From: Methanosarcina flavescens
GTDB taxonomy: Archaea > Halobacteriota > Methanosarcinia > Methanosarcinales > Methanosarcinaceae
Reading direction: 5' to 3'
Assembly: GCF_001304615.2 (NCBI RefSeq)
Contig: NZ_CP032683.1
Coordinates: forward strand, 744,001 to 808,000
Length of the DNA stretch: 64,000 bases
The position numbers and the translations under genes were made by a program. The notes beneath the pieces are model-generated. The model was not told where the DNA came from, made no database searches, and worked only from the letters and a program-made list of their open reading frames with translations. Shown one piece after another: positions 49 through 54,910 of the stretch (its first letter is position 1; every line of letters begins with the position of its first letter).

Positions 49-161
49 AGGTAAAGGTAAAATTAAAACTAAAGAAATAAAAACTAAGAAATAAAACTTA
101 AAAAGGCAAAATAAGATAATAAGTAAACAAGTGAAATAATTCAGAAAATGCATATATTGAG

Positions 162-46954: not shown

Positions 46955-46974
46955 TTTTTCATTAATTGCCTTTT

Positions 46975-47113
46975 TGCTAAAACTTTTTCCTAAAAAGTTT
47001 TCGATAAAACTTTTCCCTAAAATCTTTTTGATAAAATTTCTTCCTAAAATCTTTTTGCTAAAATTTCTTCCTAAAAAGTTTTTGGTAAATCTTTTTCCTA
47101 AAAAGCTTTGCTT
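46975..47113. repeat. 27-bp hairpin-forming tandem repeats, five units
   Basis: Five imperfect copies of a 27-bp unit such as AAACTTTTTCCTAAAAAGTT plus seven bases. Each contains a self-complementary core (CTTTTT...AAAAAG). As the period is nine codons, an open frame with KLFPKKFSI-like units results by chance. The unit type is the same as at 3148-3230 and about 62088-62185. It lies between the AK6 gene and the Cys-rich gene, which point toward each other. Confidence 0.85.
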
Positions 47114-47184
47114 TAAAGAAAATTAGTAAGGGATATGGGGATCAGACCCCGGAAGATTAACACTTCCTTTTCCCTTAAAAGTGC

Positions 47185-47643
47185 TTAGCACCTGCAACTT
47201 TTGCATGCTGAACCAGTGGGGTTCTTTGCACAGATAAAAGTGCACTTTGAGCAGCTGTCGCAGTTGATATTAAACGTAACTGTTGCACAATCGGTTCTTC
47301 CATCTTTACCCTTTACACAGTATTTGAAACTGTCAGTACAAGCTTTAGTGCATTTTGCTGGCTTTGTGTAGCAGAATTTACCATTACTCTGAATACAGAT
47401 CTTACCGCCCAGTTTGGTATTAAAACATCCAGGTTTAGCAACTTTAAGGTTGCATCCTTTGTCATTCTTCAGCACGTTATTGCAGTAAGATTTAGATTTA
47501 CAGTTAAGTGTAAATTTATCATTTACTGCATCTGTTTTTACCTTACACTTGTAGCATGAGGAGCACGCGGCTGCTCCTGTCATAGACATGACAAAGAAGA
47601 CCAGCGTGATAACACAAATTGTCTTAAACATGGTTTTTCTCAT
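47185..47643 (-). CDS. secreted cysteine-rich protein
   Basis: A 152-residue protein with a clear signal peptide (MRKTMFKTICVITLVFFVMS, cleavage likely after TGAAA). The mature chain of about 125 residues contains 20 cysteines, including CSSCYKC at the start, CDSCSKCTFIC late and CKSCRC at the end, with conserved-looking NCKSKSYC and YCVKGKDGRTDC pieces. It probably folds with many disulfides or binds metals outside the cell. No family recognised. ATG 47643 has GGAGG eight bases upstream, better than the longer frame to 47685. Confidence 0.82.
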   Translation of the reverse strand: MRKTMFKTICVITLVFFVMSMTGAAACSSCYKCKVKTDAVNDKFTLNCKSKSYCNNVLKNDKGCNLKVAKPGCFNTKLGGKICIQSNGKFCYTKPAKCTKACTDSFKYCVKGKDGRTDCATVTFNINCDSCSKCTFICAKNPTGSACKSCRC

Positions 47644-48457
47644 AATATATCCTCCATAGTATGCACTCAACCATGAAAATTTCAAAGATATTGGTTTTTA
47701 AATCCGATTATCACTGGCAATGAAAATATATTCTTCCGGATTAAACCCCCCAATTTATCAGGGAGATATATTTTCATATGATTGAGTGGTAGTTCTACAA
47801 TATATTTCAACAAACAGTTTAAAATTAAACTGCTAGTTTTGAAATTTTATGCATCTTTAACTTTTCCAAAAATACAGTCACTTACCAATGTGCTGAGTTA
47901 CAATATCGATTGCAGCAGTTAACCTAGTATGTCAAATTTAGGTTAAAAGTTGAAACGTACTGTAACAAAACACATAGGAATTGATCCTACATTTGTATGA
48001 AAAAGTTTAAAGAATACACAAATAGAAATAGAACTTTCTTTTATAAGAAATTTTCTCTTTGATATAAGTCACACTGTTTACATCTGATACTTATCTAAAA
48101 AATTTAAATTGATGGTAGAAAAGTTTTTCATAAGTGGCTATATATAAATAATTACAGGATAGAGAATAAAAGGTTAGAAGGAAAGGAAACAAAATTGAAG
48201 GAAATGAAAAATTAGAGAAATAAAGTAAGTAAAAAGAGCTGAAAATCAGGAAAAAATAAAAAGTGTTGAAATTAAGGAAAAAAGAAGGCAAAGAAAGTTA
48301 AGAGTAAGGAAAGAATGAAAAAAGTAAAGAAAACTGTAAAGAAAAAATAAAGGTGAAGATTAGCTACATTGAGAGGGAGAAAAAGGCTGTAAACCTTTTT
48401 AGAGACTGATAAACAACGATAGGTCACCAAATGCAAAATCTTATATGCAGAGTACCT
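47644..48457. other. long AT-rich and purine-rich intergenic region
   Basis: About 800 bp with no supported gene. The part from about 48150 to 48365 is almost purely A and G on the plus strand (runs such as GAAGGAAATGAAAAATTAGA), like the tracts at 1-130 and 740-850. The rest is AT-rich. Confidence 0.5.
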
Positions 48458-51636: not shown

Positions 51637-52738
51637 TATAGTTCTTCTCTCAACTAATTACACTTTTAATTTGTGGATAAAATTTTTCTATCCAACTTTT
51701 TGCAAATGATATCGAACCCTCTATCCTGTTAAATTCATTTTTGATTATATTTCTCAAATGTTCTTTTGATTGAATAAATCTGACCGATACATCTCTTTTA
51801 ATTGTTTTCCATATTAACTCTACAGGATTCAAATCTGGTGAATAAGGTGGAAGAAACACAAGTTTAATTCCCAATTCTTTTGCTTTCATTTTTGTTTTAT
51901 CTGCTTTATGTGCTTTAAAATTATCAAGTATAAGTACTATGATTTTTCCTCTGTTCTCTTTCGCTATTTTTTCAAGAAACTCACATACACTTTCTGCCTT
52001 TGAACTTTCTTTAAAATCAATCAGATTATTCCCATTAATTGAGTAAAAGGCAAATACATTTGCCTTTATGTAATCTGTATTTTTTATCATTGAAGATTTT
52101 GTAAATGACCACAAACGCTGCGTATTTGCTTTTGTTTGTGGTGAGGATTCATCAAGGAAACCTATTACATATTTCTAATGTGAAAGAGGATACTTTGGAA
52201 CTGTTTCACTTAACTTTTTTTAAAATTTCTTCTGCATCTTTAGGTCTCCTGTAGTCGAGAATATAAGGTTTTGAATGATGCATTCCAAAGTTTTTCAGTA
52301 TAACTCCTATCCTTTTTAATGAGTACTCAACGCCATATTTTTCCTTTATTAGCTCTAATACTTCTCTGGTAGTCCAGAAATCTTTCTTTTTCAACAAACT
52401 CTTTAATTCTATCATTTGTTCGTCAGTAAGCTTAGGCTTTCTTCCTCCACCAAATTGTGGCATCAAGGCGGCATAGCCGCCTTTATTCCAATAATCTTGC
52501 CAATAATAGCCACATTTCTTAGTTACCCCAACTTTGATGGCAGCTTCTTCAACAGAATCTCCTAAATACCTAAATTTGATAAAATAAAGCCTTTTTAGAA
52601 CGCGAGAGTTATTTTCATGTTTGATCAAGGAGTTAACCTCATCAAGACTTAACTTCTGATCAATAGCAATTTGTTCCTTCCCCACCATAAAAGGATAATA
52701 TGAGTTAATGTGTGTAATACCTTACGTCAAGGACTATA
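51637..52738. mobile_element. IS630-family insertion element, about 1.1 kb
   Basis: The transposase frame on the minus strand is enclosed by imperfect inverted repeats of about 27 bp. The left end begins TATAGTTCTTCTCTC at 51637 and the right end, read inward, begins TATAGTCCTTGACGT at 52738. 17 or so of 27 positions agree, including a shared ATTACAC. Both ends start with TA, the expected target duplication for IS630/Tc1-type elements. The transposase is split (see next entry), so this copy may be inactive unless recoding occurs. Confidence 0.75.
51650..52688 (-). pseudogene. IS630 transposase, frame interrupted twice
   Basis: The N-terminal part (52688-52206) has the helix-turn-helix region (SVEEAAIKVGVTKKCGYYWQ) and ends at TGA just after a run of seven A. 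The DDE part (about 52205-51650) follows in another frame: FLDES, LILDNFKAH and PPYSPDLNPVELIWK give the D-D-E triad. Removing one A from the run at 52215-52221 would join the frames, giving ILKKLSETVPKYPLSH, but a TAG then lies in frame just before KYVIGFLDES. So a homopolymer shift plus an amber break the gene, unless both are recoded (pyrrolysine at TAG). Confidence 0.82.
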
Positions 52739-53909: not shown

Positions 53910-54004
53910 TGGAATTTTTAAAGATAATTGGGAAGAAAGTACCTTACTGTATGTATTTTAATTTCACTTAAATCCCTATAAAAATCCAACCCAAAGGTGA
54001 TACG

Positions 54005-54910
54005 ATGCTTAAAAGACAACTAGGAACCCTATTCCTGGTAACATGCTTTATTTTAATAACCGTACCGGCTTCTTTAGGCGCTGCGAGTACACAGAGTTCA
54101 AAGGTAGTAACTGTTGCAGGAGACGGAAGTGGAGACTATAATGTTGATGGGAAAGCCGACGACGTTGAGATTAACCAGGCTCTCGAATTTGCCGCAAATA
54201 ACCCGGGCACAACTGTCCACCTTAAAGGTCCATTTACATACGATATAAGCGATTCACTCAGAATCGGTAGCAGCACAGTCCTTGAAGGAGACTCCAATGT
54301 AACAATTAAGCTTGCCAAAGGACTACCTCTCTGGGGCAGCCGCGAGAGCAGCATTGCAGAAAAGAAAGCCATGCTTATGATTAGAGGCAGTTCTGCAAAC
54401 GACATTACAATTAAAGGTTTTACTGTTGATGGCAGTCAGTCAGACTATTATCCTAATGTCAGGCTTGGAACTTCCTCCTACAATATGGCAACACTCATAA
54501 GCGTTAATGGGTTAACAATTCAGGACATGACATTCCAGAACGGGTGTAACGACGCCATGCTTATCTCAAAATCCAGCAACATCATGATCGACACAGTAAC
54601 TGTAAACAAGTGTGGTCACGATGGTGTGTATGCCTATCATGTAAACGGCATTACAGTTAAGAACTCTAAATTTATTAACCGGACTAATTCGTCCGTTCGG
54701 TTCGATTCCGTTACCAATGGTGTAATGACAAACAATGATTGTACTACATCTGGTGGTGGATACGCTGGTTTGGAATTACAGGGAACTCTTAAGAACATAG
54801 AAGCCTCTGGTAACTATTTCCATGACTTGCCTTCCCCTGCAGTAGTACGCTTAAACACAAAAGAAACTAATGTAAATATCCACGACAACAGAATTGAAAA
54901 CTGTGGATAA
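54005..54910 (+). CDS. secreted right-handed beta-helix protein
   Basis: A 301-residue exported protein. The signal peptide is MLKRQLGTLFLVTCFILITV with cleavage likely after SLGAAS. The mature protein begins with the pectate-lyase-like phrase VVTVAGDGSGDYNVDGKADD and then has parallel beta-helix repeats (ANDITIKGFTVDGS, VNGLTIQDMTFQNG, SSNIMIDTVTVNKC, VNGITVKNSKFINR). Such proteins bind or cut surface polysaccharide or act as surface layer parts. Enzymatic activity cannot be judged. ATG 54005 with AAAGGTGA upstream. Two palindromes lie in its upstream region. Confidence 0.9.
   Translation: MLKRQLGTLFLVTCFILITVPASLGAASTQSSKVVTVAGDGSGDYNVDGKADDVEINQALEFAANNPGTTVHLKGPFTYDISDSLRIGSSTVLEGDSNVTIKLAKGLPLWGSRESSIAEKKAMLMIRGSSANDITIKGFTVDGSQSDYYPNVRLGTSSYNMATLISVNGLTIQDMTFQNGCNDAMLISKSSNIMIDTVTVNKCGHDGVYAYHVNGITVKNSKFINRTNSSVRFDSVTNGVMTNNDCTTSGGGYAGLELQGTLKNIEASGNYFHDLPSPAVVRLNTKETNVNIHDNRIENCG

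Follow-up and report, generated by a model that had tools for sequence, protein, structure and literature searches.

A Cys-laced, single-domain Ig-like secreted protein of Methanosarcina and the conserved leader element that its gene shares with other exported-protein genes

In the 64-kb stretch of the Methanosarcina flavescens genome analyzed here (hereafter the window), the minus strand carries a short gene whose 152-residue product contains 21 Cys residues, one of them (C10) within the predicted signal peptide and the other 20 in the mature part (Table 1). At 13.8% Cys the protein ranks highest among the 62 non-overlapping, ATG-initiated ORFs of at least 80 residues in the window, across which Cys makes up 1.68%, and at that background rate the binomial probability of at least 20 Cys in 126 residues is ~5e-14. 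The signal peptide and its putative cleavage site were called by eye, and the signal-peptide core, of the FTLxxFVxSxTGAA type, also occurs on some unrelated secreted proteins of relatives. A first-pass annotation of this DNA had described a secreted, Cys-rich protein with CxxCxxC groups at both ends and a strong ribosome-binding site, and these features stand: C27-C30-C33 opens the predicted mature chain, C128-C131-C134 followed by CKSCRC makes up its tail, and a GGAGG at 47651-47655 lies 7 nt from the ATG. We see no surface anchor on the protein, and a lipoprotein assignment was rejected, since no lipobox is convincing by eye and family members differ in the place of their first mature Cys or lack it. 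The gene lies between NMNAT and FrhB-like genes on one side and adenylate kinase on the other, a site kept in many carriers. In the gap that separates adenylate kinase from the 3' end of the Cys-laced gene we also observe an A/T-rich array of 13/14-nt units (CTTTTTCCTAAAA type), with ten overlapping 53-nt matches at 46957-47130; a scan for bacterial promoters and terminators was uninformative.

Table 1. Features of the Cys-laced gene, its product and its leader (window coordinates).
Feature	Position	Strand	Basis or remark
CDS, Cys-laced single-Ig-domain secreted protein, 152 aa, 21 Cys	47185..47643	(-)	ORF; ATG at 47643, TAA at 47185
Putative signal peptide, residues 1-26	47566..47643	(-)	by eye
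N-terminal CxxCxxC (C27, C30, C33)	47545..47565	(-)	sequence
Ig domain of Big_9 / cadherin-like type; Pfam match spans residues 39-125, last modelled strand reaches 127	47263..47529	(-)	Pfam profile, model
Cys-rich C-terminal tail, residues 128-152, CDSCSKC..CKSCRC	47188..47262	(-)	sequence
Ribosome-binding site GGAGG, 7 nt 5' of ATG	47651..47655	(-)	sequence
Conserved 137-nt leader element	47652..47788	(-)	covariance model R1, 166 bits; copy in training set
Predicted closing stem P1, 5' arm	47777..47788	(-)	12 pairs in consensus, 11 in window copy
Predicted closing stem P1, 3' arm	47664..47675	(-)	8 nt 5' of RBS
Predicted inner stem P2, 5' arm	47762..47776	(-)	alignment fold
Predicted inner stem P2, 3' arm	47721..47733	(-)	alignment fold
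Predicted TATA box TTATAAAAG	48038..48046	(-)	A-rich BRE-like stretch to 48057

The initial view that the protein contains no known domain does not hold, as residues 39-125 match the Ig-like Big_9 profile (PF17963) at 24.9 bits, a narrow margin over the Pfam gathering cut-off of 23.6. When all Cys residues are written as X the same match climbs to 35.4 bits (2e-8), which shows that it is due to the scaffold rather than to Cys composition and that the Cys partly hide it; we thus rejected a composition artefact. Each of the 12 sequences in alignment A1 has a Big_9 match at E ≤0.01 (best 2.3e-8), the orthologue in genome G028 scores 23.7 bits, and a relative in G011 with four Cys matches Big_9 at 2.3e-14 and Cadherin_5 at 1.7e-8, while the two scanned Cys-poor G011 members reach 54.5 and 32.0 bits vs. 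the 24.9 of the window protein. A structure predicted from 12 sequences shows a seven-stranded, Ig-like β-sandwich with a mean pLDDT of 73 and a pTM of 0.58, the nine 10-residue blocks from 41 to 130 lying at 75-92. The best fold match by VIA-align is the split Ig domain of FrhA (Z 10.9, rmsd 2.3, 92 residues); six RTX-adhesin entries fall at Z 10.2-10.9 (MpAFP at 10.2-10.4) and the next row at 8.2, and a sequence search of solved structures likewise returns the MpAFP domain. The protein is therefore a known domain in a new form.

Surface proteins of prokaryotes usually have Ig domains with few Cys, and the known Big_9-type domains, which contain almost none, are for the most part repeat units of large surface proteins. 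In fold and sequence pattern the window protein resembles Big_9, Cadherin_5 (PF17892) and the tandem-95 adhesin repeats of NCBIfam, but it is a lone exported protein of 152 residues with 21 Cys: a single domain is present rather than a tandem array within a large adhesin, and the tandem-95 profiles stay below their cut-offs (NF012211, 14.6 vs. 90 bits; NF045619, 22.3 vs. 180). The domain holds ten of the Cys (48, 54, 64, 73, 83, 91, 98, 102, 109 and 119). Its closest solved folds, MpAFP (5k8g, 6x6q) and FrhA (9y9w), are, by their entry titles, Ig domains split by a peptide-binding domain, whereas the window protein has no such insert. Other profile matches are weak (ExtJ in NCBIfam, 17.3 vs. 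52.5 bits; DUF4329 in Pfam), no sheath protein appears among the fold matches listed, and no metal-binding or redox cofactor profile of Pfam or NCBIfam matches the protein. Metallothionein-like proteins are small intracellular Cys-rich chains without a hydrophobic core; here we find a signal peptide (by eye), an Ig fold with hydrophobic strands and no match to such a profile, features unlike those of that class.

The family appears largely confined to one genus. The protein is 93% identical to its counterpart in G028 and 76% to that in G017, in which the sequence of locus L031 recurs. A single-protein search at E ≤0.01 matches 21 of 30 Methanosarcina genomes, some through the signal peptide alone; reading of the fetched stretches yields 39 Ig-domain members in 18 of the 30, and all 11 relatives in named genomes belong to Methanosarcina. 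In a class-wide search (237 genomes, E 0.001), only 2 of 207 genomes outside the genus give a match (G137 and G125), in both cases within a very large reading frame (3189 and 1438 residues). A multi-copy family within the host genome was considered and rejected, the gene being single copy there. Across members the total Cys content is graded from 4 to 21 on one scaffold, and four members in G011 have only 4-8. The first-pass annotation had itself named two findings as arguing against its reading, resemblance to a known domain and the existence of homologues without most of the Cys, and both have come to light. A Cys-poor member at L094:6197-7048 is followed by ~170 residues lacking a Pfam match, in which we see by eye a Cys/His/Asp pattern like that of transglutaminase-like peptidases. 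A search of the full-text literature, a weak test with many off-topic results, returned no description of either the protein family or its leader.

The members lie in recurring neighborhoods. One is shared with the window, and for it, over 36 loci, NMNAT is found at 17, adenylate kinase at 17, an FrhB-like gene at 16, YyaL at 18 and a mer-like cluster at 20, the last two counts possibly including paralogues. Other members recur around an MscS-type gene (11 loci) and in a smaller neighborhood (3 loci). Twelve of the 30 Methanosarcina genomes have no Ig member, and ten of these, G015 and G016 being left aside, were searched for NMNAT, which is present in nine and absent in G023. In seven of the nine (G001, G006, G007, G008, G009, G021 and G022) the site is empty, with adenylate kinase starting less than ~100 bp from NMNAT; in G019 the distance is ~500 bp, and in G018 adenylate kinase is not within the flank. 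Since the NMNAT-adenylate kinase site can be empty, we rejected a functional link through these neighbors and regard the gene as an insertion/deletion unit rather than part of that operon.

Upstream of 15 members at the window's site, conservation extends to ~400 nt 5' of the ATG, and its 3' part is a 137-nt element whose end lies at the ribosome site. R1, a covariance model built from 21 copies, yields 30 matches in 23 of the 30 Methanosarcina genomes, with a single match in 21 of the 23, and none in the 81 other genomes of the family under stricter filters. Of these matches 29 were aligned, the weak one at G011:C47:34119 (46 bits) being set aside: 21 lie at Ig-family members and 8 precede other genes, which encode thioredoxin (L096, L095), right-handed β-helix proteins (L128, L132, L133, L136, L135; L132 and L136 were placed here because they resemble L128 and L133) and, at L137, a PKD protein. 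The β-helix and PKD copies were outside the R1 training set, and the ORF that follows each of them has, as judged by eye, a signal peptide. At L135 the ORF begins 8 nt past the element; at L128, L132, L133, L136 and L137 it begins 39-43 nt past it and has its own start region, so that the element's GGAG would not directly serve as their ribosome site. L135, L095 and L096 combine the leader with the same signal-peptide type, and the L136 copy carries a long insert. Conversely, the leader occurs without an Ig member in five genomes (G007, G009, G015, G016 and G022), and 18 of the 39 Ig members, with the members of the other two sites among them, lack an R1 match while 21 have one. Rfam 15 returns nothing on the leader strand up to E 10; the other strand gives one chance-level match to snR5 (16.7 vs. 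45 bits).

Several observations accompany this distribution. At L095:6240-6402 the leader and a signal-peptide ORF are followed by a frame break and then by a thioredoxin-like reading frame. The window itself contains a secreted right-handed β-helix protein (53999-54907) with neither the leader nor the shared signal-peptide type (by eye), and L135, which encodes a similar protein in G011, has both. The Ig members at the second site (L082, L083, L084, L085, L086 and L092) carry a different, conserved-looking upstream sequence of CCCAGTGAGTTTCGATTA type (by eye), in which R1 finds no match.

A predicted TATA box (TTATAAAAG) places the likely transcription start of the window gene near 48018 and gives a predicted 5' UTR of ~375 nt. 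Among the 29 aligned copies, 16 have TTATAAAA 254-260 nt 5' of the element and in 7 more we recognize by eye a variant (TTAATAAAAG or TTATAACAG, for example) at that position or close to it, the upstream TATA segment being missing at four β-helix loci and two tandem copies; with TTATAAAA so far upstream, the element is predicted to lie within the transcript. Ribosum-scored folding of the alignment gives a 12-pair closing stem, P1, around a second stem, P2, and a small hairpin, at an energy of -36.3 vs. -16.9 ± 3.3 for column-shuffled alignments, none of 100 of which folds as low. In this structure 91.7% of 1030 cells pair, and neither its covariation score nor its number of two-sided changes is reached by any of 500 shuffles; in P1 alone 95.7% of cells pair and 11 of 12 pairs vary, values to be read with the knowledge that R1 fitted the alignment to P1 and favors it, the P1 arms lying near the element's ends. 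R1's own smaller structure has a covariation score that 9 of 500 shuffles reach, default RNAalifold retains little past P1, the structure slid along the alignment gives equally many two-sided changes, and the single window sequence folds with a z of -1.0, with 33 of 200 shuffles as good. Two hairpins farther up the leader (HP1 and HP2) were also considered and rejected: both are conserved, but their covariation is not significant, as 262 and 151 of 500 shuffles equal the pairing and covariation observed.

The element could instead work as DNA, either as a promoter or operator dyad or as a miniature mobile element. Its ends are inverted repeats and its lone-sequence folding is unremarkable, as noted above; the genes that follow it differ, and at five loci a gap of 39-43 nt separates it from the ORF; four β-helix loci lack the upstream TATA segment; and the element contains GAAAATATAT, which resembles an archaeal TATA box. 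We nevertheless think this reading has a chance well short of even, as the upstream TTATAAAA and its variants lead one to expect transcription across the element, 91.7% of cells are paired with a covariation score above that of all 500 shuffles, and nearly every carrier genome has a single match. Furthermore, P1 tolerates G-U, the commonest pair at one position being U-G (19 of 29), which fits an RNA and not a DNA dyad. The pairing pattern thus favors RNA, in which a two-stem structure would close 8 nt 5' of the ribosome site and the leader would probably control how well exported-protein mRNAs are translated or how stable they are.

A known comparison is the leader of the Methanosarcina slmA1 S-layer mRNA, given as 154-159 nt in PMC3361143. 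The likeness consists of a conserved long 5' UTR with a TATA box upstream of a surface-protein gene, but the predicted UTR of the window gene is ~375 nt and its 3' part is common to unrelated genes. In genome G001, R1 finds no match.

The distribution of the Cys residues across the family bears on their chemistry. The core Cys mostly occupy exposed strand positions, and members without a given Cys have a polar residue there in 85 of 103 cells (background 68%), with T typical of 73 and 83, S of 91, K of 109 and T or S of 119, and with non-polar exceptions at 102 (I/F) and 128 (Y/F); positions 83, 91 and 109 are flanked by conserved hydrophobic residues. We used a tree of 100 Cys-free columns to ask, for 171 column pairs, whether the two change along one branch, and core Cys are gained or lost in pairs. 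The top four pairs are 98-128 (both/first only/second only/none, 37/0/0/2; p ~0.001), 73-83 (13/0/1/25; p ~0.001), 91-131 (26/6/0/7; p ~0.004) and 109-119 (25/0/3/11; p ~0.006), these p-values being uncorrected for the 171 pairs and reflecting two shared events each. Among the 945 perfect matchings of ten core columns, the pairing 48-102, 54-91, 73-83, 98-128 and 109-119 comes first, with 189 of 195 cells concordant and the next at 187; it was chosen after viewing the co-occurrence table, so that its rank is a summary and not an independent test. Independent agreement comes from the modelled register of two of its pairs, as 73-83 and 109-119 are cross-strand partners (sums 156 and 228) in the modelled hairpins 72-75/81-84 and 102-111/117-127, whose register was read from the strand ends. 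The Cys of columns 48, 54, 91 and 102 appeared close together and are hard to separate, and 91-131, although among the four top co-changing pairs, falls outside the predicted set. The N- and C-terminal CxxC clusters are the most variable Cys of the family: C30 is common among members while C27 and C33 are not, and the Cys-rich tail is absent or far shorter in most. The mature Cys count is odd in 15 of 39 members, so not all Cys can be in intramolecular bonds.

Metal binding, as first suggested for this protein, would require the Cys to stay reduced, with the neighboring-strand pairs and CxxC ends holding Fe, Zn or Ni, or metal sulfides, outside the cell. The organism is an anaerobe, and its genome yields no match to VKOR at E 0.01 or to the DsbA-like Thioredoxin_4 at E 0.001 (PF01323 being outside the search), but four matches to DsbD_TM, which are ambiguous and could equally supply reductant; the CxxCxxC group at each end and the odd counts are also compatible with metal sites. 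PMC10846266 reports that M. barkeri covers its Fe and S needs from pyrite, with cell contact required. The pattern of variation nonetheless argues the other way, for it is the end clusters that vary most while the Cys of the Ig surface come and go pairwise, and the profile searches of Pfam and NCBIfam returned nothing metal-binding; we therefore judge this reading unlikely and the earlier suggestion not supported.

A reversible role, in which strained cross-strand disulfides reduced by an exported thioredoxin would act as a surface redox buffer or electron relay, draws on the geometry of 73-83 and 109-119, on the shared leader and signal-peptide type before thioredoxin in two relatives (L096 and L095), and on a nearby YyaL with a thioredoxin domain. 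The thioredoxin genes, however, belong to genomes that have no Ig member, one of these genes carries a frame break, and no redox cofactor domain matches the protein, which leaves this role quite improbable in our estimate.

Structural disulfides find some precedent: all Cys of a four-Cys small protein of M. mazei, predicted to be cytoplasmic, are in disulfide linkages (PMC11456600), and the sheaths of Methanothrix and Methanospirillum are extracellular, disulfide-linked hoops, some proteins of which carry Ig-like caps (PMC11576556). Like these sheath proteins the Cys-laced protein appears to be extracellular, and both cases count for disulfides in it. Against such bonds stands the lack of matches to Thioredoxin_4 and VKOR, the usual disulfide makers, in the host genome at the thresholds given above.

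We therefore propose, with a probability of about 0.6, that the gene encodes a disulfide-stapled extracellular Ig brick and forms an independent unit with its own promoter and folded leader. The exported product would be essentially one Ig-like (Big_9, cadherin-like) domain in which, within a Methanosarcina lineage, mostly exposed polar positions on neighboring strands may have been turned pairwise into Cys. After export these pairs would most likely close as the cross-strand disulfides of the best matching, and the leftover Cys of the ends, odd in total number in many relatives, could bond one molecule to another or anchor it to the envelope. The outcome would be a hardened building block, perhaps cross-linked, of the surface or matrix. 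The suggestion of the first-pass annotation that the protein is part of the cell surface is plausible, with indirect support from the adhesin-type Ig domain, the signal peptide and a leader common to other exported proteins. With Cys counts that run from 4 to 21 over a shared scaffold, this one genus would make the pairwise acquisition of disulfides (or of metal sites) watchable on a single fold, and a Cys-laced Ig domain raises the question of how a strict anaerobe oxidizes exported thiols.

The more surprising part is the leader common to unrelated secreted genes, which would be a rare archaeal case of a conserved, structured 5' UTR tied to exported proteins of unrelated families and could be tested in genetically tractable Methanosarcina strains. 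As a tentative proposal, to which we give somewhat less than an even chance, the 137-nt element may be a cis-regulatory RNA of a new archaeal class specific to Methanosarcina. It would coordinate cell-surface proteins that are exported and would travel from gene to gene as a cassette of promoter and leader, with or without the signal peptide, the Cys-laced Ig protein being one cargo. Separately, the signal-peptide core also recurs at L097, L098 and L099, which have no R1 match and encode short exported Trp/Lys/Glu-rich proteins, probably coiled-coil (by eye). Elsewhere in the window, two minus-strand ORFs at 51650-52688 presumably resemble the halves of an IS630-type transposase.
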